From Astropecten irregularis (lineage: Eukaryota; Echinodermata; Asteroidea; Paxillosida; Astropectinidae): 64,000 nucleotides of DNA. Shown in pieces: positions 39,943 to 62,659 of the stretch. The translations under genes were made by a program, and so were the position numbers. The first letter of the stretch is position 1. The number at the start of each line of letters is the position of its first letter. The notes below the pieces were generated by a model. That model was not told the origin of the DNA and did no database searches. It saw only the letters and a list, made by a program, of their open reading frames with translations. The stretch is from positions 8,556,001 through 8,620,000 of the forward strand of contig OZ020259.1 of the NCBI GenBank assembly GCA_963971285.1. Reading direction: 5' to 3'.

Positions 39943-40283
39943 AGCTGTTCCGACATTTCGGATGTCGGAACAGGTTTAGTTTTTGCTTAGATTTTTAGCT
40001 GTTCCGACATTTCGGATGTCGGAACAGGTTTAGTTTTTGCTTAGATTTTTATTATTAGCTGTTCCGACATTTCGGATGTCGGAACAGGTTTAGTTTTTGC
40101 TTAGATTTTTATTAGCTGTTCCGACATTTCTGATGTCGGAACAGGTTTTGTTTTTGTTCTGATTTTTATTAGCTGTTCCGACATTTCTGATGTCGGAACA
40201 GGTTTTGTTTTTGTTCTGATTTTTATTAGCTGTTCCGACATTTCTGATGTCGGAACAGGTTTTGTTTTTGTTCTGATTTTTAT
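39943..40283 (+). repeat. Six tandem copies of the 5' hairpin module
   Basis: Module starts at 39943, 39997, 40057, 40114, 40171 and 40228, a period of 54-60 bp. Each has the hairpin CTGTTCCGACAT / ATGTCGGAACAG and then GTTTTTG and ATTTTTATTA. The first three carry TTTCGGATG, the last three TTTCTGATG, so local amplification happened in two bouts. Confidence 0.85.
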
Positions 40284-40478
40284 TATTATTATTATTATAC
40301 TTTATCACCCAAAGTTTGTTTATTCCTGATCTCTTACTTAGCTTCTTCTGATCAGCTTATATGAGGTATCATATGAAAGCTTATAAGCTGAAGTTAATCC
40401 TAAGACTGAGTTTGTTAAAATTCTTAATTAATTATGCACGTGACAGCTCATTTGCATATTTAATTAGTCAATTTTGTT

Positions 40479-41020
40479 AGCAGCGTATCTCGAGAACTAC
40501 AAATGCTATGAAAATAATTCTTTTTGCAAAGGCTTAGTAGCATCATGTAGTTGTGCATGCTGTCAAGAAATTTACCGTGACGTCATCATGACGTCATCAA
40601 AAATGCTGATTTTATTATTAGCAGCATATCTCGAGAACGGTAAGTGCTACGGTAATGATTCTTTTTGTAAAAGCTTTGTAACATCATGTAGTTGTGCATG
40701 CTGCCACAAAATTTACAGTGACGTCATCATGACGTCATCAAAAAAGGTAATTTTTGGTTAAGAGCATTATATCTGGAGAACGGTAAGTGCTACGGTATTG
40801 GTTCTTTTTGTAAAAGCTTTGTTAGACCCTGTAGATTTGCATGCTGTTGTGAAATTAACTGTGACGTCATTATGACGTCATCAAAAGGCATAATTTATGT
40901 TTGCAGCATATCTTGAGTATGACAAAAGCTATGGTAATGATTCTTTTCACAAAAGCTTTGTTAGACAATTTAGATGCACGCTGCTTTGTAAATGACCGTG
41001 ACGTAATCATGATGTCATCG
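40479..41020 (+). repeat. Example set of four core subrepeats with double CREs
   Basis: Each subrepeat runs from GCAGCATATCTCGAGAACGG through TTCTTTTTGTAAAAGCTTTG and TTGTGCATGCTGC to GTGACGTCATCATGACGTCA, then a TCAAAAA tail. TGACGTCA is the CRE/ATF site; two copies sit 11 bp apart start to start. The set recurs in nearly all units, so dozens of CRE pairs lie in 19 kb. Confidence 0.8.
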
Positions 41021-42538
41021 GAGCTTTTATAAAGCTGATCAAATAAGTCGGAACAGCTCCGTGTTCGTCCACGAACACTTAAATGTCTAGTTATTATTAT
41101 TATTATTATACTTTATCACCCAAAGTTTGTTTATTCCTTATCTCTTACTTAGCTTCTTCTGATCAGCTTAGATGAGGTATCATATGAAAGCTTATAAGCT
41201 GAAGTTAATCCTAAGACTGGGTTTTTTAAAATTCTTAATTAATTAGGCACGTGACAGCTCATTTGCATATTTAATTAGTCAATTTTGTTAGCAGCGTAAC
41301 TCGAGAACCACAAATGCTGTGAATATAATTCTTTTTCCAAAAGCTTAGTTACATCATGTAGTTGTGCATGCTGCCACGAAATTTAGTGTGACGTCATCAT
41401 GACGTCATCAAAAATGCTGATTTTATTATTAGCAGCATATCTCAAGAACGGTAAGTGCTACGGTAATGATTCTTTTTGTAAAAGCTTTGTTACATCATAT
41501 AGTTGTGCATGCTACCCCAAAATTTACAGTGACGTCATCATGACGTCATCAAAAAAGGTAATTTTTGGTTTATAGCAGTATATCTTGAGAACGGTAAGTG
41601 CTACGGTATTGGTTCTTTTTTTAAAAGCTTTGTTAGACCCTGTAGATTTGCATGCTGTTGTGAAATTAACTGTGACGTCATAAAAAGGCATAATTTATGT
41701 TTGCAGCATATCTTGAGAATGACAAAAGCTATGGTAATGATTCTTTTCACAAAAGCTTTGTTAGAAACTTTAGATGCACGCTGCTTTGTAAATGACCGTG
41801 ACGTCATCATGACGTCATCGGAGCTTATAAAGCTGATCAAATAAGTCGGAACAGCTCCGTGTTCGTCCACGAACACTTAAATGTCTAGTTATTATTATTA
41901 TTATACTTTATCACCCAAAGTTTGTTTATTCCTTATCCCTTACTTAGCTTCTTCTGATCAGCTTAAATGAGGTATCTTATGAAAGCTTATAAGCTGAAGT
42001 TAATCCTAAGACTGAGTTTGTTAAAATTCTTAATTAATTATGCACGTGACAGCTCATTTGCATATTTAATTAGTCAATTTGGTTAGCAGCATATCTTGAG
42101 AACGACAAAGGCTATGAATATGATTCTTTTTGCAAAGGCTTAGTAGCATCATGTAGTTGTGCATGCTGCCAAGAAATTTACCGTGACGTCATCATGACGT
42201 CATCAAAAATGCTGATTTTATTATTAGCAGCATATCTCGAGAACGGTAAATGCTACGGTAATGATTCTTTTTGTAAAAGCTTTGTTACACCATGTAGTTG
42301 TGCATGCAGCCCCGAAATTTATAGTGACGTCATCATGACGTCATCAAAAAGGGTAATTTTTGGTTTATAGCAGTATATCTCGAGAACGGTGAGTGCTACG
42401 GTATTGGTTCTTTTTGTATAAGCTTTGTTAGACCCTGTAGATTTGCATGCTGTTGTGAAATTAACTGTGACGTCATTATGACGTCATCAAAAAGCATAAT
42501 TTATGTTTGCAGCATATCTTGAGAATGACAAAAGCTAT

Positions 42539-42646
42539 TTTTTTTTTTTTTTATGAAAAATCGCCAATCACAAGGCCCAAAACAGGCCACTCCAGGTGAT
42601 GGCTAAAACGAGGAGAAAAGGGAACAAAGAAGAAATCATGGGGTAG
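42539..42646 (-). mobile_element. SINE-like retroposed insert in unit 3
   Basis: 108 bp beginning with a T run on the plus strand, flanked by the 8-bp duplication AAAGCTAT (42531-42538, 42647-42654). Minus-strand reading ends in an A run after GATTTTTCAT and contains CACCTGGAGTGGCC. The neighbouring unit 4 lacks it, so it came after that unit duplication or only in this unit. Confidence 0.75.
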
Positions 42647-43615
42647 AAAGCTATGGTAATGATTCTTTTCACAAAAGCTTTGTTAGAAACTTTAGATGCA
42701 TGCTGCTTTGTAAATGACCGTGACGTCATCATGACGTCATCGGAGCTTATAAAGCTGATCAAATAAGTCGGAACAGCTCCGTGTTCGTCCACGAACACTT
42801 AAATGTCTAGTTATTATTATTATTATACTTTATCACCCAAAGTTTGTTTATTCCTTATCCCTTACTTAGCTTTTTCTGATCAGCTTAAATGAGGTATTGT
42901 ATGAAAGCTTATAAGCTGAAGTTAATCCTAAGACTGAGTTTGTTAAAATTCTTAATTAATTATGCACGTGACAGCTCATTTGCATATTTAATAAGTCAAT
43001 TTGGTTAGCAGCATATCTTGAGAACGACAAAGGCTATGAATATGATTCTTTTTGCAAAGGCTTAGTAGCATCATGTAGTTGTGCATGCTGCCAAGGAATT
43101 TACCGTGACGTCATCATGACGTCATCAAAAATGCTGATTTTATTATTAGCAGCATATCTCGAGAACGGTAAATGCTAAGGTAATGATTCTTTTTGTAAAA
43201 GCTTTGTTACACCATGTAGTTGTGCATGCAGCCCCGAAATTTATAGCGACGTCATCATGACGTCATCAAAAAGGGTAATTTTTGGTTTATAGCAATATAT
43301 CTCGAGAACGGTGAGTGCTACGGTATTGGTTCGTTTTGTAAAAGCTTTGTTAGACCCTGTAGATTTGCATGCTGTTGTGAAATTAACTGTGACGTCATTA
43401 TGACGTCATCAAAAGGCATAATTTATGTTTGCAGCATATCTTGAGAATGACAAAAGCTGTGGTAATGATTCTTTTCACAAAAGCTTTGTTAGAAACTTTA
43501 GATGCATGCTGCTTTGTAAATGACCGTGACGTCATCATGACGTCATCGGAGCTTATAAAGCTGATCAAATAAGTCGGAACAGCTCCGTGTTCGTCCACGA
43601 ACACTTAAATGTCTA

Positions 43616-43648
<33 letters not shown>

Positions 43649-45118
43649 CTTTATCACCCAAAGTTTGTTTATTCCTAATCTTCTATAATCTTGTTCTGGT
43701 CAGCTTATATGAGGTATCATATGAAAGCTTATCAGCTGAAGTTTATTATAAGACTGAGTTTGTTAAAATTCTTAATTAATTAGGCACGTGACAGCTCATT
43801 TGCATATTTAATTAGTCAATTTTGTTAGCAGCATATCTTGAGAACGACAAAAGCTATGAATATGATTCTTTTTGCAAAGGCTTAGTAGCATCATGTAGTT
43901 GTGCATGCTACCAAGAAATTTACCGTGACGTCATCATGACGTCATCAAAAATGCTGATTTTATTATTAGCAGCATATCTCGAGAACGGTAAGTGCTACGG
44001 TAATGATTCTTTTTGTAAAAGCTTTGTTACATCATGTAGTTGTGCATACTGCCCCGAAATTTACAGTGACGTCATCATGACGTCATCAAAAAAGGTAATT
44101 TTTGGTTTATAGCAGTATATCCCGAGAAGGGTAAGTGCTACGGTACTGTTTTTTTTTTGTAAAAGCTTTGTTAGACCCTGTAGATTTGCATGCTGTTGTG
44201 AAATTTACTTGTGACGTCATTATGACGTCATCAAAAGGCATAATTTATGTTTGCAGCATATCTTGAGAATGACAAAAGCTATGGTAATGATTCTTTTCAC
44301 AAAAGCTTTGTTAGAAACTTTAGATGCACGCTGCTTTGTAAATGACCATGACGTCATGATGACGTCATCGGAGCTTATAAAGCTGATCAAATAAGTCGGA
44401 ACAGCTCCGTGTTCGTCCACGAACACTTAAATGTCTAGTTATTATTATACCTTCGCACTTTTTGCTTCCATAGCTTTGTGTGATAAGTTTGTTTATTCCT
44501 AATCTTTTATAATCTTTTTCTGGTAAGCTTATATGTGGTATCTTAAGAAAGCTTATAAGCTGAAGTTAATCCTAAGACTGAGTTTGTTAAAATTCTTAAT
44601 TAATTAGTCACGTGACAGTCATTTGAATATTTAATTAGTCAATTTTGTTAGCAGCATATCTCGAGAACCACAAATGCTATGGAGATGATTCTTTTTGCAA
44701 AAGCTTTGTTATATCAAGTAGTTGTGCATGCTGCCACGAAATTTAGTGTGACGTCATCATGACGTCATCAAAAAAGCTTATTTTTGATTAGCAGTCTATC
44801 TCGAGAACGGTAAGTGCTACAGTAATGATTCTTTTTGCAAAAGCTTTGTTATTATCATGTAGTTGTGCATTGCTCTGAAAAATGAACATGATGACATCAT
44901 GACGTCATCAAAAAGCCTGATTTTTTGTTTTCAGCATAACTCAAGAATGACAAATGCTATGGTAATGATTCTTTATATAAAAGCTTTGCTGCATCATGTA
45001 CATGGATATGCTGCCATGAAATTGACCGTGACGTCATCATGACGTCATCAGAGCTTATAAAGCTGATTAAATAGGTCGGAACAGCTCCGTGTTCGTCCAC
45101 GAACACTTAAATGTCTAG

Positions 45119-46325
45119 TTTTAATATTTAATTAGTAATTTTTGTTCGCAGCGTATCTCGAGAACGGCAGGAGGTACGAAAATAATTCTTTTTGCAAAAG
45201 CTTAGTAACACCCTGTAGATGTGCATGCTGCCATAACATTTGTGACGTTACGTCATCATGACGTCACAACCGGAAGTTGAATTTTGACTCGAAATAACTC
45301 CAAAACGGATGGATTTGGGCATTTAAAACCTTACAGTCTAAAAGATAGAGACAGGCTAGGGCTTTTTTAGAAAATATAGGTGATGACGTCATACGTTTGA
45401 ATGTGATAACGTCATTCAACCGGAAGTTATGTGCTTTTAAAGGAAAAATGACGTCATTATTAAAATACTATTTACTCGGTAACGGCATATGCTACGAAAA
45501 TAACTCTTTTTCCAAAAGCTTTTTTACATCCTTTAGTTGTGCATGCTGCAATGAAAATGGCCGCGACGTCATCATGACGTCATAAAACTGGCTGTTTTAA
45601 AGCCCGAGATCGAGGGCCCATAATGTATGTGCATGGCGCCATGGTATATGTGTGTACATCCACTGCATGTGGTGCAAGCTCTTTACAGTTAATCCCCGAG
45701 TGAACTGGGACTGGTTTTTCTTAAGGGAACACGCCTGCTTCAAAGATCCAAAAATGAACAATGCAGAGTATAGCACAATATTTCTATGATATTTAATGAA
45801 GGTTTTTTTGTGAAATAAAATCAGAAATATGTCGTGTAATTAAGGTTATAACTCAAAAACACTATAAGGGTAAATTAGGTCAGGTACGTATAAGCCTTTC
45901 CAGCCTCAGCAAGTGTTAGGTTGTCGCACACCAATATGGTTTTAGATGTACTGGTAGCTGTGACTTTGTTGCAGCTGCCGTATGAGAATTCCAGGAAGGC
46001 GATACATCACATACATTATGTGACGTCTGGCTTGAGATACGAAGATACACGTAGATCGGGGTCGATAGAGACACAGCAATAACGCCACCAAGCATTTTAA
46101 CTTAAATTGTGACAAGAGACAGAGGCTGCATCCGGCCGAATCTGTTGAGGAGGTCTCCGTTCCATAAAATTGACCGTGACGTGCAAAAGCTTTTGTATAT
46201 CCTCTAGATATGCATGCTGCATTGACAATGTCGATGACGTCATCATGACGTCACCAGAGTTTATAAAGCTGATTAAATAAGTCGGAACAGCTCCGTGTTC
46301 GTCCACGAACACTCAACTTGTATAG
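45119..46325 (+). repeat. Divergent unit with extended tail
   Basis: It starts with one core-like subrepeat, then sequence (CCGGAAGTTGAATTTTGACT, GAGGGCCCATAATGTATGTG) that recurs at 51575-52560. It ends with the field's 3' hairpin but a variant terminus, CACTCAACTTGTATAG. Confidence 0.6.
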
Positions 46326-46330
46326 TTTTC

Positions 46331-47445
46331 ACTTGCTCTGATGATTCCGAACCGTCTTACACCATTTTATACTCCGAACATCAGAAATCTTCGTAACGTA
46401 GGCAAATGGATTCAAATGGAATATTTGAATATATACATCAAGTGCCTTAACAAAGTACCATGTAGCCAACCTCTCCATGATCAAAATGATCAACTGCAAT
46501 GTACACTACAAAATAATACCATGTCAATATATTATGTCTCATAGATGTCATTTCAAATGAGCTCCCGATTTCTCAAAGACTAAAATTATGAAGACAACAA
46601 ATTACCTACTTTGAAAACTATTATGCGAATTAACGACATCCATGATAATATTATGATATTTACTGCAACGTAAATGTCAACATTCGCTGCAAGTGCAAGT
46701 ACATTGTACATAAACTCAATATGTTGGAATGTGACTGATTTCAAGGTAAACTTCAACAATCAACTGAACCTTTGCGAACCTAGCCACTGCCATTGTCAGT
46801 AATTTCAATACAGCACCTCATTTGAATAACCACCTGTAGAGTTTATATATAGGTGTTCCCGCACATTTATAAACTGTTTTCATTCAATTTCCGAAGCGGT
46901 TAACTTCAATTTCGTCTTGAAGATTCATTACCTTGCATATCCCATGTTCGATTTCGTCTTTGGTCGCCCATTTTGACACTTTGACAAACCAATTTGATAT
47001 ATTTGCCATACATTTTGATCGAAGACAAATCAATTTCGTCGACTGCAGTCGCCAAGCGAACGATAGACGAATCAATTTCGTCATTTTACAATCAAATTCG
47101 TATGAATATCATTCAAATTCGTCCCATGATTAATAATATATGCCGTCCTTCATTTCTTGTTTACTATGTATGATGTGCTTTTCGATTTTTGTTTTGCCCG
47201 AAAATTGAGCCTAGAGGAAAGATGTTTTTTTTAATGTTCATACCAGAAATAAGCAGTCCTATACTTCATCAAGTAAAAGAAGATGTATTCGTAATTTCAC
47301 AACTCTTCTGGAATAGTCCACACATCACTTGGTTATATGACCCTCTGGCCCGGTTTCCATCTGGATCCATTTGCCTACGTTACGAAGATTTCTGATGTTT
47401 GGAGTATAAAGTGGTGTAAGTCGGTTCGGAATCATGAGAGCAAGT
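46331..47445. repeat. Inverted repeat pair A (arms about 80 bp)
   Basis: 46331-46411 (TTGCTCTGATGATTCCGAAC ... TCGTAACGTAGGCAAATGG) pairs with 47366-47445 (CCATTTGCCTACGTTACGA ... GTTCGGAATCATGAGAGCAA). The arms interleave with pair B. Confidence 0.7.
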
Positions 47446-48012
47446 AGAAAGAAGCAACATGTAACCTGAAAAGGACTTATGCAGTGTAGGCAAATAAGCC
47501 TTTTCGCAAAGCTGTTTACATTCAGATTATCAGTTTCATTTGAATGACATTATTCTTGAAATCGCTCGACAAAAGACGAATTTGATGTTTCAATAATGTA
47601 GATGATGGTCAAGTGAGACGAATTACAGTGACATATGACGAAAACGAATGAAAACTGACGAAACCCATTGACCATTGATCAACTCGAATGACCAATGACT
47701 AAATTAATTGTAGCATTTGCATATTCCAGTCTTCATGGAACGAAATTGAAGTGAGGTGCATGCTTAGGAAATTTAATGAAAAACGTTTTAAAATGTGCCG
47801 GAAAACCTATAATAACTCTCCAGCGGGTTATTAAAATGGGTACTGTATACAGTGTATTGAAATTACAGACAATAGCAGCGGCTAGGTTCGCAAAGGTTCA
47901 GTTCATTTCATTGTTGACGTATACCTTGAAATCAATCAATGTGCCAACAGATTGAGTTTATGTACAATGTACTTGCACTGTACGTTGCAGTAAACATCAT
48001 AATATTATCACG
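46640..48012. repeat. Inverted repeat pair B (arms about 180 bp)
   Basis: 46640-46820 (AAGTACATTGTACATAAACT, GAACCTTTGCGAACCTAGCC) pairs with 47838-48012 (GGCTAGGTTCGCAAAGGTTC, AGTTTATGTACAATGTACTT). The inner flanks also resemble each other as complements (CAATTTCGT / ACGAAATTG words). No coding. Confidence 0.7.
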
Positions 48013-48557
48013 AATGTTTGCAGTTGATCATTTTGATGGATGGCTACATGGAGCTTTGTATTTATTTATTTTTTATATTTTAAGTTCTACGTGCACTTTG
48101 TGTAAGAAAATTTCAATCATGTAAGGGTTAGGGTTAGTGGAACTATGGTTTTAATCGATTCATTGTTAATTGATGGTCATTTTAATGGATTTCATGGTGT
48201 AAGTCTGGGGAAAGGACATCATCGCAATTTGTCCACACACCTCTTCCCAACTATTAAACTATAGAAGTTTTGTTACGGAACCCGTCCAAATAGCACAGCG
48301 TGGCTATGTGTTTCGTATACACAATCATATCATATCCGTATGCATACACAACGTACACATGAGTTATTTGCACGTACTGTATGGTGGAGATCAATGATGG
48401 TATCCCATAATAATACATTGATAGTATCTAATTCATCATACAAATAAAACACGCCTCCCAAAACATGAAAGCAGTACCAGACTATTTCGTTGAAACGATG
48501 ACGGAGGTCCGGTCAGTGACCCTGGGGTATGGCGTGCAAAGTTAACATTTAATCGGG

Positions 48558-49006
48558 AATAGAGATATCTCTATTAACAATAGAGATATCTCTATTAACA
48601 ATAGAGATATCTCTATTACAAGACGTGCCAAGTTAACATTTAATCCCGAAATAGAGATATCTCTATTAATAATAGAGATATCTCTATTGTTAATAGAGAT
48701 ATCTCTATTATTAATAGAGATATCTCTATTAGTAATAGAGATATCTCTATTTCTAATAGAGATATCTCTATTATTAATAGAGATATCTCTATTAACAATA
48801 GAGATATCTCTATTATTAATAGAGATATCTCTATTAATAATAGAGATATCTCTATTACTAATAGAGATATCTCTATTTCTAATAGAGATATCTCTATTAA
48901 TAATAGAGATATCTCTATTGTTAATAGAGATATCTCTATTTCGCAATAGAGATATCTCTATTGCACAATAGAGATATCTCTATTTCGCAATAGAGATATC
49001 TCTATT
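48558..49006. repeat. Palindrome array, left arm, 20 copies
   Basis: AATAGAGATATCTCTATT, a perfect 18-bp palindrome, is repeated 3 + 14 + 3 times. In the middle block the period is exactly 21 bp (starts 48650, 48671 ... 48923). The 3-nt spacers vary (AAC, AAT, GTT, ATT, AGT, TCT, ACT) while the palindrome does not. The last three spacers are 4 nt. Because 21 is a multiple of 3, long open frames reading NRDISI-like or LLIEIS-like repeats appear on both strands; they are not genes. Confidence 0.9.
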
Positions 49007-49379
49007 ATAATCAGCTTTCGACGTCAGCAGGTCGCCCTCTACGTTTTGTTTTGTTTAAATTTCTATCATCTTGAGGGGTTTCAAGTCGCGTCTTAATACT
49101 GTACTCCCGCAGTTGTTTACGCTGGGAAGTTTATGTATCTTTTTATGGTACCAGTCTGTCGAGATGTCGCCTAATCTGGCGAATTTCGCTATGTATGCGA
49201 CGTTCCAAAACGGTCCTTAATCCAGCCATTATAAATTAATTGAAAGTGCCTGGGCATAATACATGTAATAACGAACATAATAAAATGACTTGATGCATGA
49301 TGGGATATGATGCGCGTGCCCCCTGGCTCACTGAAACTTTGTGCGTGACGTTACAACGACCACTCCGACCGGAAACATT

Positions 49380-49662
49380 AATAGAGATATCTCTATTAAA
49401 ACCGGAAGTACACAATAGAGATATCTCTATTGTTAATAGAGATATCTCTATTGTTAATAGAGATATCTCTATTACTAATAGAGATATCTCTATTGCTTAT
49501 AGAGATATCTCTATTGCTAATAGAGATATCTCTATTGCTAATAGAGATATCTCTATTCTTAATAGAGATATCTCTATTCTTAATAGAGATATCTCTATTT
49601 CTAATAGAGATATCTCTATTGTTAATAGAGATATCTCTATTGTTAATAGAGATATCTCTATT
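49380..49662. repeat. Palindrome array, right arm, 13 copies
   Basis: One copy at 49380, then 12 from 49414 to 49662 at a 21-bp period, with spacers GTT, ACT, GCT, CTT, TCT. One copy (about 49498) has a single changed base in one half. Same palindrome as the left arm. Confidence 0.9.
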
Positions 49663-49767
49663 CCCGATTAAATGTTAACTTTGCACGCCATACTGGGGCA
49701 TAGCACTTTACAAAACCTCAGCGCGACTCAGTCCTAAGACTGAGTTTGTTAAAATTCTTAATTAATT

Positions 49768-52560
49768 AGCTGTTCCGACATTTCCGATGTCGGAACAGGT
49801 TTTGTTTTTGTTCTGATTTTTATTATTATTATTATTATACTTTATCACCCAAAGTTTGTTTATTCCTGATCTCTTACTTAGCTTCTTCTGATCAGCTTAT
49901 ATGAGGTATCATATGAAAGCTTATAAGCTGAAGTTAATCCTAAGACTGAGTTTGTTAAAATTCTTAATTAATTATGCACGTGACAGCTCATTTGCATATT
50001 TAATTAGTCAATTTTGTTAGCAGCGTATCTCAAGAACTACAAATGCTATGAAAATAATTCTTTTTCCAAAAGCTTTGTTACATCATGTAGTTGTGCATGC
50101 TGCCAAGAAATTTACAGTGATGTCATCATGACGTCATCAAAAATGCTGATTTTTATTATTAGCAGCATATTTCGAGAACGGTAAATGCTACGGTAATGAT
50201 TGTTTTTGTAAAAGCTTTGTTTCATCATGTAGTTGTGCATGCTGCCCCAAAATGTACAGTGACGTCATCATGAAGTCATCAAAAAAGGTAATTTTTAATT
50301 CTTTAATAATTAAGCACGTGACAGCTCATTCAAATTTTTAATTAGTCAGTTTTGTTAGCAGCGTATCTCAAGAACGACAAAGGCTATGAATATGATTCTT
50401 TTTGCGAAAGCTTAGTTACATCATGTTGTTGTGCATGCTGCCAAGAAATATACCGTGACGTCATCATGACGTCATTAAAAAAAGGAAATTTTTGGTAAGC
50501 AGTATATCTCGAGAACGGTTAGTGATACGGTAATGGTTCTTTTTGTAAAAGCTTTGAAAGACCCTGGAGATGTGCATGCTGTTGTGAAATTAACTGTGAC
50601 GTCATTATGACGTTATCAAAAGGCAAAAGATATCTTGAGAATGACAAAAGCTATGGTAATGATTCTTTTCGCAAAATCTTTGTTATAGCCTTTAGATATG
50701 CATGCTGCTTTGGAAATGACAGTGACGTCATCATGACGTCATCGGAGCTTATAAAGCTGATCAAATAAGTCGGAACAGCTCCGTGTTCGTCCACGAACAC
50801 TTAAATGTCTAGTTAGTCATGTGACAGTCATTTGAATATTTAATTAGTCAATTTTGTTCGCAGCATATCTCGAGAACCGCAAATGCTATGGAAATTATTC
50901 TTTTTGCAAAAGCTTTGTTATATCATGTAGTTGTGCATGCTGCCACGAAATTTAGTGTGACATCATCATGACGTAATCAAAAAAGCTGATTTTTGATTAG
51001 CAGTATATCTCGAGAACGGTAAGCGCTACAGTAATGATTTTTTTTTGCAAAAGCTTTGTTATATCATGTAGTTGTGCATTGCTTCGAAAAATGAACATCA
51101 TGACATCATGACGTCATCAAAAAAGCCAGATTTTTTGTTTGCAGCATATCTGAAGAATGACAAATGCTATATGGTAATGATTCTTTTTATAAAAGCTTTG
51201 CTGCATCATGTACATGAGTATGCTGCCATGAAATTGACCCTGACATCATCATGACGTCATCAGAGCTTACAAAGCTGATTAAAGAAGTCGGAACAGCTCC
51301 GTGTTCGTCCACGAACACTTAAATGTCTAGTTATTATTATTATTATTAGCTGTTCCGACATTACCGATGTCGGAACAGGTATTGTTTTCGTACGGATTTT
51401 TCATTATTCCTTCGCTCTTTTTGCTTCCATAGCTTTGTGCACAAAGTTTGTTTATTGTTTATCTCTTCTTAGCCTCTTCTGATCAGCTGAAATGAGGTAT
51501 CATATGAAAGCTTATAAGCTAAGGATCATTTCGGAACGGAAGTGTTAAAATTCTCAATTAATTAGTCACGTGACAGTCATTTTAATATTTAATTAGTAAT
51601 TTTTGTTCGCAGCGTATCTCGAGAACGGCAGGCGGTACGAAAATAATTCTTTTTGCAAAAGCTTAGTAACACCCTGTAGATGTGCATGCTGCCATGACAT
51701 TTGTGACGTTACGTCACATGACGTCACAACCGGAAGTTGAATTTTGACTCGAAATAACTCAAAAACGGATGGATTTGGGCATTTAAAACCTAACAGTCTA
51801 AAAGATAGAGACAGGCTAGGACTTTCAGAAAATATAGGTGATGACGTCATACGGGTTACATAGCGCCCTCTACGGTTGATTAAAGATATACAGTGATTAC
51901 GTAATCCGAAAATAAACAACGGATTACTGCCAAATTTAGTAAGTGTCAAGTATTAGAACACCTCCTTATGTTCGTGAAGTTTGAATGTGATAACGTCATT
52001 CAACCGGAAGTTATGTGCTTTTAAAGGAAATATGACGTCATTATTAAAATACTATATTTACTCGGTAACGGCATATGCTACGAAAATAACTCTTTTTCCA
52101 AAAGCTGTTTTACATCCTTTAGTTGTGCATGCTGCAATGAAAATGCCCGCGACGTCATCATGACGTGATAAAACTGGCTGTTTTAAAGCCCGAGATCTAG
52201 GGCCCATAATGTATGTGCATGGCGCCATGGTATGTGTGTGTACATCCACTGCATGTGGTGCATGCTCTTTACAGTTAATCCCCGAGTGAGCTGGGACTGG
52301 TTTATCTTAAGGGATCACGCCGGCTTCAAAGATCCAAAAATGAACAATGCATAGCACAATAGAGTATAGCACAATATTTCTATGATATTTAATGAAGGTT
52401 TTTTGTGAAAAAAAATCAGAAATATGTCGTGTAGTTAAGGTTATAACACAAAAACACTATAAGGGCAAATTAGGTCAGGTACGTATAAGCCTTTCCAGCC
52501 TCAGCAAGTGTTAGGTTTTAGATATACATGTACTGGTAGCTGCCGTATGAGAATTTCAGG
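49768..52560 (+). mobile_element. Helitron-like field, block 2
   Basis: Units end with CTAG at 50809-50812 and 51327-51330. A third starts with the hairpin module at 51348 and runs into the tail sequence shared with 45119-46010. Core subrepeats with double CREs as in block 1, somewhat more diverged. Confidence 0.65.
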
Positions 52561-52679
52561 AAGGCGATACATCACGTAAGATGGTTTTAGCCGTATACGA
52601 TGGTAAAATCATCGACAAAACTTTAACAATTTCTGAATTAGGAAAATCCGTCTGTTGAAACCATAATTAGGCTTTTCAG

Positions 52680-53590
52680 AATGATTCACAAAATGTTTTT
52701 TGAGTTGACGAAATGTTTGCGACTTGACAAAATGTTTTTCGGGTTGACGCAATGTTTGCGAGTTGACGTAATGTTTGCGAGTTGGCAAAATGTTTGCGAG
52801 TTGGCGCAATGATTTGCGAGTTGAGGCAATGTTTTAGAGTTGAGGCAATGTTTGCGAGTTGAGGCAATGTTTTCGAGTTTACGTAAAGTTTGCGAGTTGG
52901 CGCAATGTTTTAGAGTTGACGTAATGTTTGCGAGTTGAGGCAATGTTTTCGAGTTGACGAAATGTTTGCGACTTGAAAATGTTTTCGGGTTGACGTAATG
53001 TTTTCGAGTTGACGTAATGTTTGCGCGTTGGCGCAATGTTTGCGAGTAAGCGGAATGTTTTACAGTTGACGCAATGTTTTCGAGTTGAGGCAATGTTTTC
53101 GAGTTGACGTAATGTTTGCGAGTTGACGCAATGTTTTCGAGTTGAGGCAATGTTTTCGAGTTGACGAAATGTTTGCGACTTGAAAATGTTTTCGGGTTGA
53201 CGTAATGTTTTCGAGTTGACGTAATGTTTGCGCGTTGGCGCAATGTTTGCAAGTTGGCGGAATGTTTTACAGTTGACGCAATGTTTTCGAGTTTAGGCAA
53301 TATTTTCGAGTTGACGTAATGTTTGCGAGATGGCGCAATGTTTTAGAGTTGACGCAATGTTTGCGAGTTGACGCAATGTTATCGAGTTGACGTAATGTTT
53401 CCGAGAGTTCAATGTTTGCGAGTTTATGCAATGTTTTTGAGTTGCCGCAATGTTTTTGATTTTACACAATGTTTTCAAGATTATGTTATGTTTGCGAGTT
53501 GACACAAAGTTTTTGAGTTGACACAATGTTTGCAAGTTGATGCAATGTTTTAGAGGTGACACAACGTTTTTGAGTTGACGAAATGGTAAA
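52680..53590. repeat. 19-bp minisatellite with 207-bp higher-order repeat
   Basis: Unit of type AATGTTTTCGAGTTGACGC, about 47 copies. Variants are GCGAG/TCGAG/TAGAG and GACGC/GAGGC/GACGT. A block including the odd variant GCGACTTGAAAATG occurs near 52955 and again near 53162, giving a 207-bp super-repeat. Three units make 57 bp, so minus-strand frames stay open with a 19-residue repeat; these are not genes. Confidence 0.85.
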
Positions 53591-53599
53591 GTCACGGTA

Positions 53600-55187
53600 A
53601 AGGCAAGCATGGGCGCCAAAAAGTGCCAAAAATCGCCCAACGTGTGTGTTCTGGGTCTCAGGAATGTGCTGCTATGTATAAGTTAACAATTTAGGTACGT
53701 GTACAAGGCCATACAGATCAGACATGACGTAGGATGTTGAAAGTACTGTAAAGTCTCCATTATTTTTCGTGTGGAGGTTGTGTTATCAGCCTTTTTTTCA
53801 TTACCCCAGTTTCATATACTTGTGAATTTTGAGAGCGACAAGTGCTACGAACTTGATTCTTAATTTTATCTGTTATATCATGTAGTTGTGTATGCTACCA
53901 CGAAAATGACAGACATCATTACGATATGTCATTGTATTCGAAATTTGGGTTTCCTTTTTAAAGATACGTCATTGGAAGATTTTTTTTCTACGGTTAATTT
54001 TAAAATGTCCGTAAATACTTGAATAAAAATCATTTGTCGGAGAATGTGACATTGAGACTGAAGTCACTGATAGAATTGCTACGTGAAACATTCAAAACTT
54101 GAATACACCATACAGCCCTTATACCTCAAAACAAAAGAATAAACTTCCGCTTTTTGTGTGACGTCTCGTGACCATGGCTTGCGATACGAATTAGGTACAC
54201 GTAGATCGTGGGCGTTCACCAATAGCGCCACCAAGCATTTTAACGTTATTAAAAAAGTTGAATTTTTTGTTGGCAGTATATCTCGAGAACGACAAATGCT
54301 ATGGTAATGATTCTTTTTGAAAAAGTTCTGTTAGATCCTGAAATTGTGCATGCGGCAGTGAAAATAAATGTGATGTCATCATGACGCCATAAAAAGCTGA
54401 ATTTTATTCCATATCGTAAAGAATGTCTGATTGTCAGGAAACTTGGTAGGTGTGTCTGTGCTACTCCAAGAATGTTTTAAAGATGACTTGGTTAAGAATG
54501 TAGAATTAAATACTGAAGTGTTGAGCACATGCCAGCTCATTTAAATATTTACTTAGCAAATTTTGTTCGCAGCATATCTCGAGAACGGCAAATGCTACGG
54601 AAATGATTATTTTTGCAAAAGCTTGTTATATCATGTAGTTGTGCATGCTGCCTCAAAATTTACCGTGACGTCATCACGGAGTCATCAAAAAAGCTGATTT
54701 TTGATTAGCAGTATATCTCGAGAACGGAAATTGCTACGGTAATGATTCTTTTTGCAAAAGCTTTGTTATATCATGTAGTTGTGCATGCTGCTACGAAATT
54801 TACCATAACGTCATCATATGACGTTATCAAAAAGCTGATTTTAATAGAAGCAGCATATCTCAAAAACGACAAATGCTATGGTAATGATTCTTTTTATAAA
54901 AGCTTTGCTGCATCTTGTAGTTGTGCATTGCTCCGAAAAATAAACATGATGACATCATGACGTCATCAAAAAGGCAGATTTTTTGTTAGCAGCATATCTC
55001 AAGCATGACAAATGCTTTGGAAATGATTCTTTTTATAAATTGACTGTGACGTCATCATGACGTCATCAGAGCTTATAAAGCTGATTAAATAAGTCGGAAC
55101 AGCTCCGTGTTCGTCCACGAACACTTAAATGTCTAGTTAGCTGTTCCGACATTTCGGATGTCGGAACAGGTTTAGTTTTTGCTTAGA

Positions 55188-55226
<39 letters not shown>

Positions 55227-58200
55227 TTTATCACCCTCTAAGCTTGTTAACAGCTTATCTCTTCTTAGCTTCTTCTGATCAGCTTAGATGAGGTATCATA
55301 TGAAAGCTTATAAGCTAAGGATCATACTGGCACTGAGTTGTAAAAATTCCTCATTAATTAGGCACGTGACAGCTCATTTGCATATTTAATTAGTCAATTT
55401 TGTTAGCAGCATATCTTGAGAACGACAAAGGCTATGAATATGATTCTTTTTGCAAAGGCTTAGTAGCATAATGTAGTTGTGCATGCTGCAAAGAAATTGA
55501 CCGTGACGTCATCATGACGTCATCAAAAATGCTGATTTTATTATTAGCAGCATATCTCGAGAACGGTAAGTGCTACGGTAATGATTCTTTTTGTAAAAGC
55601 TTTGTTACATCATGTAGTTGTGCATGCTGCCCCTAAATTTACAGTGACGTCATCATGACGTCATCAAAAAAGGTAATTTTTGGTTTATAGCAGTATATCT
55701 CGAGAACGGTAAGTGTTACGGTATTGGTTCTTTTTGTACAAGCTTTGTTAGACCCTGTAGATTTGCATGCTGTTGAGAAATTAACTGTGACGTCATTATG
55801 ACGTCATCAAAAGGCATAATTTATGATTGCAGCATATCTTGAGAATGACAAAAGCTATGGTAATGATTCTTTTCACAAAAGCTTTGTTAGAAACTGCAGA
55901 TGCATTCTGCTTTGTAAATGACCATGACGTCATCGGAGCTTATAAGGCTGATCAAATAAGTCGGAACAGCTCCGTGTTCGTCTACGAACACTTAAATGTC
56001 TAGTTATTATTATTCTTTATCACCCTCTAAGCTTGTTTACAGCTTATCTCTTCTTAGCTTCTTCTGATCAGCTTAGATGAGGTATCATATGAAAGCTTAT
56101 AAGCTAAGGATCATACTGGCACTGAGTTGAAAAAATTCCTCATTAATTAGGCACGTGACAGCTCATTTGCATATTTAATTAGTCAATTTTGTTAGCAGCA
56201 TATCTTGAGAACGACAAAGGCTATGAATATGATTCTTTTTGCAAAGGCTTAGTAGCATAATGTAGTTGTGCATGCTGCCAAGACATTTACCGTGACGTCA
56301 TCATGACGTCATCAAAAATGCTGATTTTATTATTAGCAGCATATCTCGAGAACGGTAAGTGCTACGGTAATGATTCTTTTTGTAAAAGCTTTGTTACATC
56401 ATGTAGCTGTGCATGCTGCCCCGAAATTTACAGTGACGTCATCATGACGTCATCAAAAAAGGTAATTTTTGGTTTATAGCAGTATATCTCGAGAACGGTA
56501 AGTGCTACGGTATTGGTTCTTTTTGTAAAAGCTTTGTTAGACCCTGTAGATTTGCATGCTGTTGTGAAATTAACTGTGACGTCATTATGACGTCATCAAA
56601 AGGCATAATTTATGATTGCAGCATATCTTGAGAATGACAAAAGCTATGGTAATGATTCTTTTCACAAAAGCTTTGTTAGAAACTGCAGATGCATGCTGCT
56701 TTGTAAATGACCATGACGTCATCGGAGCTTATAAAGCTGATCAAATAAGTCGGAACAGCTCCGTGTTCGTCCACGAACACTTAAATGTCTAGTTATTATT
56801 ATTCTTTATCACCCTCTAAGCTTGTTAACAGCTTATCTCTTCTTAGCTTCTTCTGATCAGCTTAGATGAGGTATCATATGAAAGCTTATAAGCTAAGGAT
56901 CATACTGGCACTGAGTTGTAAAAATTCTTCATTAATTAGGCACGTGACAGCTCATTTGCATATTTAATTAGTCAATTTTGTTAGCAGCGTATCTCGAGAA
57001 CCCAAAATGCTATAAAAATAATTCTTTTTCCAAAAGCTTTGTTACGTCCTGTAGTTGTGCATGCTGCCACGAAAATGGCCGTGACGTCATCATGACGTCA
57101 TAAAATTTGCTGTTTTTAAGCCCTATGTCAGAGCATAGGCCTATTATGTGTGTGTAGTGTGTACACGTACATACATACATGTACTGTATTACTGTATACA
57201 GTTAACCCCATTTGCAGCTGGGATTGTTTATCTCTAATGATCAGAGTCTGAGGAATGTGCTGTTATGTAAGAGGTAGGCCAGCAAGTGCATGACCATGCA
57301 CTGTTGCCACGGTAACAAGGTGTGTTAGTATTCAAGCGCATGAAAGCACATAGTACGATGTTGAAAGTACTGTCAAGTTCATCGTCTAGAGGATGTGTTA
57401 TGAGGCTCACTTTCTGACCCAAGTTTATATGCTTATTTCTTTTGATTATTTAGTCAGTTCATGCTTAGTTTGATATTATGGAAATGACCATGACGTCATC
57501 ATGACGTCATCAAAAATGCTGATTTTATTATTAGCAGCATATCTCAAGAACGGTAAGTGCTACGGTAATAATTCTTTTTGTAAAAGCTTTGTTATATCAT
57601 GTAGTTGTGCATGCTGCCCCGAAATTTTCATTGACGTCATCATGACGTCATTAAAAAAGGTAATTTTTGGTTTATAGAAGTAAATCTCGAGAACGGTAAG
57701 TGCTACGGTATTGGTTCTTTTTATAAAAGCTTTGTTAGACCCTGTAGATTTGCACGCTGTTGTGAAATTAACTGTGACGGCATTATGACGTCATCAAAAG
57801 GCATAATTTATGTTTGCAGCATATCTTGAGAATGACAAAAGCTATGGTAATGATTCTTTTCACAAAAGCTTTTTTAGAAACTTTAGATGCACGCTGCTTT
57901 GGGAATGACCGTGACGTCATGATGACGTCATCGGAGCTTATAAAGCTGATCAAATAAGTCGGAACAGCTCCGTGTTCGTCCACGAACACTTAAATGTCTA
58001 GTTATTATTATTATTATTATTAGCTGTTCCGACATTTCGGATGTCGGAACAGGTTTAGTTTTTGCTTAGATTTTTATTAGCTGTTCCGACATTGCCGATG
58101 TCGGAACAGGTATTGTTTTCGTTCGAATTTTTCACTATTATTATTCTTTATCGTCCAGATTTTGTTTACAGTTTATCTCTTATAAGCTTCTTCCGATCAG

Positions 58201-59178
58201 CTTAGATGAGGTATCTTCTGAAAGCTTATAAGCTAAGGATCATTCTGGAACAGAGTTGTACAAATTCTTAATTAATTAGCCAAGTTACAGTCATTTGAAT
58301 ATTTAATTAGTAAACTTTGTTCGCAGCATATCTCGAGAACGACAAATGCTACGGACATGATTTTGTTTGCAAAAGCTTGGTTATATCATGTAGTTGTGCA
58401 TGCTGCCACGAAAATGACCGTGACGTCATCATGAAGTCATCATGACGTCATCGAAATCGAAATTTGTGCTTCTTATTTAAAGATAAGTAATTTGTTGATT
58501 TTTTTTCTACGGTTAATATAAAAATTTACTAAAAATCATTTGTCGGAGAATGTGACATTAAGATTGGAGTAACTGATGGAATTGCTACGTGAAACATTAA
58601 AAACTGATTGTAAAAAAAAAACATTTTAGGCCTTATACTTAAAAAAGATTGAATAAACTCCCGCTTTGTGTGACGTCTCGTGACCTTGGCTTAAGATACG
58701 AAGGTACAGGTAGATCGGGGTCGATAGAAGCACAGTTATAGCGCCACCAAGCATTTTTACTTAAATTGTGACAAGTGAAAAAGGCTGCATCCGGCCGAAA
58801 CTGTTAGAGGAGGTCTCCGTTCCATGAAATTGACCGTGACGTCATCATGACGTCATGAAAAGGCTGAATTTTGTTTGCAGCATATCTCGAGAAGGACAAA
58901 TGATATGGTAATGATTCCTTTTGCAAAAGCTTCGTAATATCCCGTAATTGTGCATGCTGCCACGAAATTTAGCGTGACGTCATGATGACGTCATCAAAAA
59001 AGCTGATTTTAATGTTTGCAGCATATCTCGAGAACGAAAAATGCTATGGTAATGATTCTTTTTGCAAAAGCTTTGTTAGAGGATACAGTGACGTCACCAT
59101 GACGTCATCGGAGCTTATAAAGCTGACCTAATAAGTCGGAACAGCTCTGTGTTCGTCCACGAACACTTAAATGTCTAG
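53600..59178 (+). mobile_element. Helitron-like field, block 3
   Basis: CTAG ends at 55133-55136, 56000-56003, 56789-56792, 57998-58001 and 59175-59178. Hairpin modules at 55138, 58022 and 58079. Units at 55.2-56.0, 56.0-56.8 and the start of 56.8-57.0 are almost identical and share a variant leader (CACCCTCTAAGCTTGTT). Some units carry extra tails, such as 53930-54250, repeated at 58470-58800. Confidence 0.65.
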
Positions 59179-62523: not shown

Positions 62524-62659
62524 AATGGCGGCGCCCAGTTAAAACGCGCGTATCAGACGCGCGTCCGATCTAGTTTTTATTATTCTATTATCTATGGCGG
62601 CGCCCAGTTAAAACGCGCGTATCAGACGCGCGTCCGATCTAGTTTTTATTATTCTATAT
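62524..62659. repeat. Tandem pair, about 69-bp unit
   Basis: ATGGCGGCGCCCAGTTAAAA, then CGCGCGTATCAGACGCGCGT and CCGATCTAGTTTTTATTATT, occurs twice head to tail. The complement of its CGCGCGTCCGATCTAG end occurs once near 60525, in inverted orientation, next to copy A. Confidence 0.75.

Follow-up and report, generated by a model that had tools for sequence, protein, structure and literature searches.

Palindromic arrays in both arms of a short IS3EU/GingerRoot-type transposon from the sea star Astropecten irregularis

Introduction

A 64,000-nucleotide stretch of the genome of the sea star Astropecten irregularis (hereafter the window) contains a short insertion whose two arms are built from one palindrome, repeated at a spacing of two turns of the DNA helix. 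This raises the question of what kind of element it is and what the palindromes do there. Repeated transposase-binding sites inside the tips are a feature of Ac/Ds, Spm/CACTA and Tn7 ends, although these have fewer sites than the present (focal) element and transposases of other families. Galileo, a Drosophila element of the P superfamily, resembles it in having long arms with internal tandem repeats, which in Galileo hold extra transposase-binding sites as determined by gel shift (Marzo et al. 2013, PMC3688188). It differs, however, in its P-type THAP transposase and in its repeats, which are long and direct and carry extra sites in two cases out of four, and the string 'palindrom' does not occur in the available part of that text. 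Foldback-type elements, including Tetris and the sea urchin elements cited with it, are similar in their inverted arms of tandem repeats (PMC4079207). Their transposases are, by contrast, mostly Mutator-type or unknown, the Tetris repeat is TIR-220, and a palindromic unit of two helical turns goes unmentioned in the portion of the article at hand.

Structure of the focal element

The element occupies positions 48528-49692 of the window (1165 bp) and is flanked on both sides by a 6-bp target duplication, CTGGGG (48522-48527 and 49693-49698). Its 30-bp ends are perfect inverted copies, TATGGCGTGCAAAGTTAACATTTAATCGGG; the left one (48528-48557, + strand, also supported by genome matches) starts with TATGG and the right one (49663-49692, - strand) ends with CCATA, so that the termini read TATGG..CCATA. 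An initial sequence-only reading had proposed an element of exactly this length, with precise terminal inverted repeats and a CTGGGG duplication, and the sequence bears this out. The same reading counted 33 perfect palindromes at a strict 21-bp step. The count of 33 units of AATAGAGATATCTCTATT stands, but only 32 are exact, the unit at 49498 having one change, and the step is less regular than supposed: of 32 steps, 26 measure 21 bp, 4-nt spacers raise three to 22 bp, and the others are 34, 50 and 391 bp.

The longer steps reflect the layout of the arms. Three palindromes (48558-48617) follow the left end, and the 50-bp step beyond them contains, at 48618-48649 (+ strand), an imperfect 32-nt copy of the terminal repeat, oriented as the left end. 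The remaining 17 units of the left arm (48650-49006) have a step of mostly 21 bp, the last three being at 22 bp. The 391-bp step contains the unique core of 373 bp (49007-49379), after which the right arm (49380-49662) consists of one palindrome, a 16-nt gap and twelve palindromes at a 21-bp step, including the changed unit. As in Foldback-type elements, the arrays lie in both arms, inside perfect ends; the two arms have their ends and palindromes in common and are unlike in length and spacers. Open reading frames spanning the array were considered as genes and rejected as low-complexity by-products of the repeat.

Distribution of the family and origin of the short form

The exact 18-mer palindrome occurs 843 times in the 475.7-Mb genome and its reversed control not at all, and the focal repeat is therefore not a product of chance. 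The terminal repeat gave 97 genome matches (43 forward and 54 reverse, with up to three mismatches over 27 bases) against none for the control, and a 376-bp core query (49010-49385) gave 37 matches, 11 of which, the window copy among them, had the full score at 100% identity. We looked for target duplications at 30 loci of the family, namely the window copy, 25 short copies (L011-L035), L043 and three long copies. An exact 6-bp duplication was found at 21 of these, against a chance expectation of about 1 in 4096 per pair under equal base use; the nine without one include a single-ended locus and a long copy, C15, that fits neither of its two right ends. Array size, counted in the window element and in 17 further short copies that retain both ends and two arms, ranges from 27 to 37 units and changes by whole units. 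Two copies of only 80 bp (L028 and L035) have a single palindrome each, exact in the former and altered in the latter, with an exact duplication. The two expectations that had been set for a family, namely the same ends with 6-bp duplications and arrays of variable length, were thus both confirmed. Nor is the exact palindrome mainly an independent satellite, since 744 of the 843 lie within fetched loci bearing the family ends or core; 99 are without an assigned location, and two loci fetched for missing palindromes (L102 and L103) yielded none and one, respectively.

Three pairs of ends are widely separated, by around 13.8 kb in C15 and C18 and by around 24 kb, with extra DNA, in C1. The C15 and C18 copies are 99.6% identical over 9518 bp and 99.8% identical over 4623 bp. 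In both, the core is present as two separate parts (query 1-152 and 149-376), while C1 has only 149-376 among the matches listed. The core of the window element is therefore the join of an internal deletion, at which a left and a right subterminal segment of the long element meet with four bases, GTCG at 49158-49161, common to both. Pfam searches of C18 identified integrase-core exons (rva_4, E 7.8e-44 and 6.8e-18), and rva_4 matches were found at the corresponding places in C15 and C1, so that all three long copies are positive. A short upstream exon in C18 reads WHMDANLKLV and the next contains RSDHGLEN and NQRIE; together, the WH.D, R.D..EN and NQRIE signatures make up a D, D, E set like that of integrase-type transposases. 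In each of the three long copies, the final rva_4 exon match contains a TAG, which may be an exon edge. The short form thus arose when a ~13.8-kb element encoding a split DDE transposase lost its interior, and the focal element is a short, internally deleted, non-autonomous member of a recent mobile family.

On the strand opposite to rva_4, C18 also has an open reading frame that encodes the C-terminal portion of a HECT ubiquitin ligase (E 7.2e-9) and weakly matches solved HECT domains (best E 1.1e-5, to E6AP). Polinton/Maverick elements, of 15-20 kb, carry genes for a protein-primed DNA polymerase and capsid; polymerase or capsid genes of this kind had no match in the five long-copy ORFs scanned.

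The between-copy comparison bears on an argument made from the window alone, that conservation of the palindrome beside freely varying 3-nt spacers points to selection or copying on the palindrome itself. Within arrays the contrast holds, the 3-nt spacers differing by 0.49 per nt. In 19 young focal copies, 600 of 615 units were exact and 18 of 11,070 positions departed from the consensus, a count that omits units with more than four changes, the coreless L022, loci with fewer than 10 units, loci past L033 and an older copy, L031, in which 25 of 39 units are altered. Between copies the argument loses force, the palindromes changing about as little as the core: across 18 copies, the core differs by 0.19% pairwise and aligned spacers by 6.3% per nt, a figure that includes unit turnover and misalignment. 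Since palindrome and core are about equally unchanged between young copies, a young burst alone is no proof of selection. The spacers, moreover, do not vary freely, being mostly drawn from a small set in an order largely common between copies, and some are of 4 nt.

Relationship to known superfamilies

Judged from its termini, duplications and integrase-like DDE domain, the family is a member of the known IS3EU/GingerRoot superfamily. In published IS3EU families that are complete, the termini are invariably TA..TA and 6-bp duplications are usual, and IS3EU clusters with GingerRoot (PMC10045372). In fungal TET-carrying IS3EU elements, the terminal inverted repeats exceed 30 bp and the ends read TAYGG..CCRTA (Kojima 2025, PMC12730594). 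The focal family agrees in its TATGG..CCATA ends, its 6-bp duplication, its 30-bp terminal inverted repeat with an adjoining palindrome and its integrase-like DDE transposase. It differs in its subterminal palindromic arrays and its HECT gene, neither of which is mentioned in the available text of the two papers: HECT occurs in neither, and 'palindrom' is absent from the former and appears once, in an unrelated context, in the latter. The earlier remark that no described family with this build was known is not supported, since the focal termini, duplication and transposase match those of IS3EU/GingerRoot, and foldback-like elements whose ends contain tandem repeats are known. Among the full-text matches listed in a literature search, with subscription papers and Repbase mostly outside its scope, no description of palindromic subterminal arrays in IS3EU was recognized by title or abstract. 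These comparisons suggest that, while the superfamily and tandem-repeat arms are already known, palindromic arrays in IS3EU are a new variation. The amphioxus 'mirage' minisatellites were also considered and set aside, being, as far as the consulted part of the source describes them, exon-intron tandem duplications unlike the focal arrays.

Arrays in other rva_4 element types

A genome search with rva_4 returned at least 61 matches, and 30 of these loci, of 3.2-3.6 kb each, were examined for arrays. Tandem arrays with a period of 20-23 and at least four copies within 1.5 kb were present in 18 of the 30, against 2 of 18 tiles of the window, both of which belong to the focal element. Grouped by their ends and the sequence of their arrays, the 18 loci, many of them mutual copies, represent nine types (A, A2, B, C, C2, D, D2, E and F), all with units of 21-22 bp that are unlike in sequence between types. 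Among the other loci, L056, L057 and L078 belong to the focal family, with arrays farther out; L058 carries a repeat of 31 bp and L079 one of 53 bp; and within the limited flanks of L053, L054, L055, L062 and L080 no arrays were seen.

Termini starting with TA (TACG.. or TATG..) were read at the outer edges of eight types (A, A2, B, C, C2, D, D2 and E), and in all eight types with two ends read, that is, excluding F and with E complete in L076, arrays are present in both arms. Four end patterns, searched against the genome, gave 80, 27, 76 and 79 matches (controls 0 or 1); these include short pairs and also pairs that bracket rva_4 genes at distances of 7-25 kb. Exact 6-bp duplications flank 14 of 16 copies of the other types, both exceptions being A2. 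One A2 element (L085 and L063, C8:11971536-11980346) has flanks ATGTAA and TTACAT that are reverse complements, instead of a direct duplication.

We also observed a sister of the focal type, L050 (C11:1008981), in which an array of around 1.5 kb has the main unit AATAGAGACATCTCTATT plus GTT, with the central pair broken. At L099 (405-773), 18-bp palindromes CATGGTTTATAAACCATG and variants occur at an irregular, wider spacing upstream of the rva_4 gene of L051, itself a twin of L052 (99.9% identity over 3549 bp).

Dyad symmetry was assessed by circular pairing within each unit (the tandem-repeat consensus or dominant forms) against 5000 shuffles, the best centre being taken in both; H and J lay outside this test. 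Units of the focal type (P = 0.007), A (0.026), the A variant in L071 (0.006), A2 (0.022), C (0.0004), D (0.004), D2 (0.010), E (0.002) and L050 (0.042) were symmetric, whereas B (0.077), C2 (0.060) and F (0.056) singly lay above 0.05 relative to shuffled units, and the 31-bp unit of type G showed no dyad symmetry by the same test (P = 0.71). For six representatives of our own choosing (focal, A, B, C, D and D2), the combined Fisher P was 4.6e-8. When units of eight types were permuted, 63 of 72 half-sites matched, compared with a mean of 32.8 under the null, but this comparison is biased because the units had been set on their best dyad centre. A mononucleotide shuffle of whole arrays is an invalid control for repeats and was excluded from the evidence. 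Types D2, E and F have a common frame, TCGT....ACGA followed by GATAATA, with TCGA, GCGC and AATT, respectively, as the central four bases. The units of D2 and E are perfect 12-bp palindromes and the F consensus has one broken pair, so that the two halves of the palindrome centre change together between D2, E and, imperfectly, F.

In a FastTree phylogeny of 15 sequences (whole ORFs, with a single exon in the focal row), the focal exon grouped with J and K (split support 0.999), and A/A2, C/C2 and D/D2 formed pairs. The focal exon is 39-44% identical to J and K and 26-34% identical to types A-F. Arrays are thus found on two distant branches, for which shared descent and repeated origin are both possible; the low identity to A-F means that the build could have arisen repeatedly. 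An N-terminal helix-turn-helix was sought in five non-focal transposase ORFs, where all matches fell below the Pfam cut-off, including HTH_21 in type G (E 0.0006) and HTH_Tnp_Tc3_2 in D (E 0.005), and D2 had none; compared by sequence with solved structures, the D2 transposase had no match up to E = 1.

Function of the arrays

We consider it likely that the window contains a short IS3EU/GingerRoot-type element whose arm palindromes serve as dimer sites for its own transposase, a role that we infer from the dyad unit, the two-turn pitch, the presence of arrays in both arms and in gene-less copies, and the type-specific palindrome. Transposase dimers would occupy the palindromes in both arms, and with the two-turn spacing successive dimers would lie on one face of the DNA and coat each arm; the coated arms might then allow the two ends to be found and paired. 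Arrays would gain and lose complete units, the dyad being preserved by the need for the transposase to recognize it, and the palindrome would differ between element types because site and transposase change together. Galileo provides a precedent for repeated transposase sites in transposon ends. The original suggestion of a dimeric protein site on successive turns also gains support from the other element types.

Several observations temper the dimer-site reading, among them the P values of B, C2, F and G, the loci with no array in their limited flanks, the low identity of the focal exon to types A-F and the TAG in the final exon match of the long copies. The 80-bp, one-palindrome copies with exact duplications indicate that a long array may be dispensable, unless they shrank after insertion, and the best of the sub-threshold helix-turn-helix matches sits in type G, itself without a dyad array, which counts against the arrays being dimer sites. 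For a broader proposition, that an entire branch within IS3EU marks its ends with long two-turn dyad arrays and that palindrome and transposase change jointly between types, we see the chances as about even. Such a branch would constitute a natural series of matched transposase-site pairs, with many dimers coating each arm to form the pairing complex.

It is possible, though unlikely, that the arrays are instead a by-product of hairpin or slippage amplification near transposon ends, with palindromes multiplying by folding and having no binding role. Array length does shift by whole units between copies, palindromic units are able to fold back and the L050 array is long. Folding, however, does not explain a period of two helical turns or the presence of identical units beside such divergent spacers, and the 21-22-bp period is common to the nine other rva_4 types despite their sequence differences.

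A further alternative, which we think quite improbable, is that the arrays bind a host or element-encoded regulator (for silencing, promoter control or insulation) rather than the transposase. Dyad sites spaced by two turns could serve any DNA-binding protein that is a dimer, in the 3.5-kb loci the transposase gene has the nearer array upstream of it, and the long copy has the HECT gene in addition, but the arrays occupy both arms and persist in short copies without genes, and palindromes specific to each type would be unexpected if one host factor were shared. That an ordinary satellite merely chanced to sit inside a mobile element is highly improbable: unit turnover in the tandem repeats and the unlocated palindromes would fit it, but most exact palindromes lie in loci with family ends or core, and analogous arrays occur in other element types.

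If the arrays do bind transposase, a single genome would offer as many as ten combinations of a DDE transposase with its matching site (the nine types and the focal one), with geometry in common and sequence not. Such combinations would give direct access to how an integrase-type transposase reads DNA, to the dependence of end pairing on site number and to the joint change of site and protein. The arrays would also provide a structural signature for finding and sorting members of the superfamily, and would account for a class of palindromic repeats of 21-22 bp that may be recorded as satellites in annotation pipelines. If they do not bind transposase, a two-turn period across unlike sequences would still need explanation.

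Other observations

At L081 (C131:32162-33484) we found a second COX1, open in the standard code and unlike the mitochondrial COX1, perhaps from a bacterial contig in the assembly. In the mitochondrial gene, all five AAA codons occupy Asn positions, AGA and ATA coincide with Ser and Ile positions, respectively, and TGA is translated as Trp, a pattern in agreement with the echinoderm/flatworm mitochondrial code. An amphioxus host was considered and rejected; a search for the GFP family gave no match, which is weak evidence because the controls gave none either. Several further repeats are present in the window. A hairpin of the form GTTCCGACAT-loop-ATGTCGGAAC has eleven copies with up to two mismatches (39947-40256, 49772-49796, 51352-51376, 55143-55167 and 58026-58107), six of which form a 57-bp tandem array and one of which lies around 74 bp to the right of the duplication of the element. 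Repeats of around 141 bp containing TGACGTCATCATGACGTCATCA extend over 40477-59110; TGACGTCATCATGACGTCATCA itself has 53 matches with up to three mismatches at 40578-59089, and none between 46235 and 50118, around the element. A 19-bp tandem repeat, AATGTTTTCGAGTTGACGC, is present in around 47 copies at 52692-53585, and a perfect 69-bp tandem repeat of 1.9 copies lies at 62525-62657.
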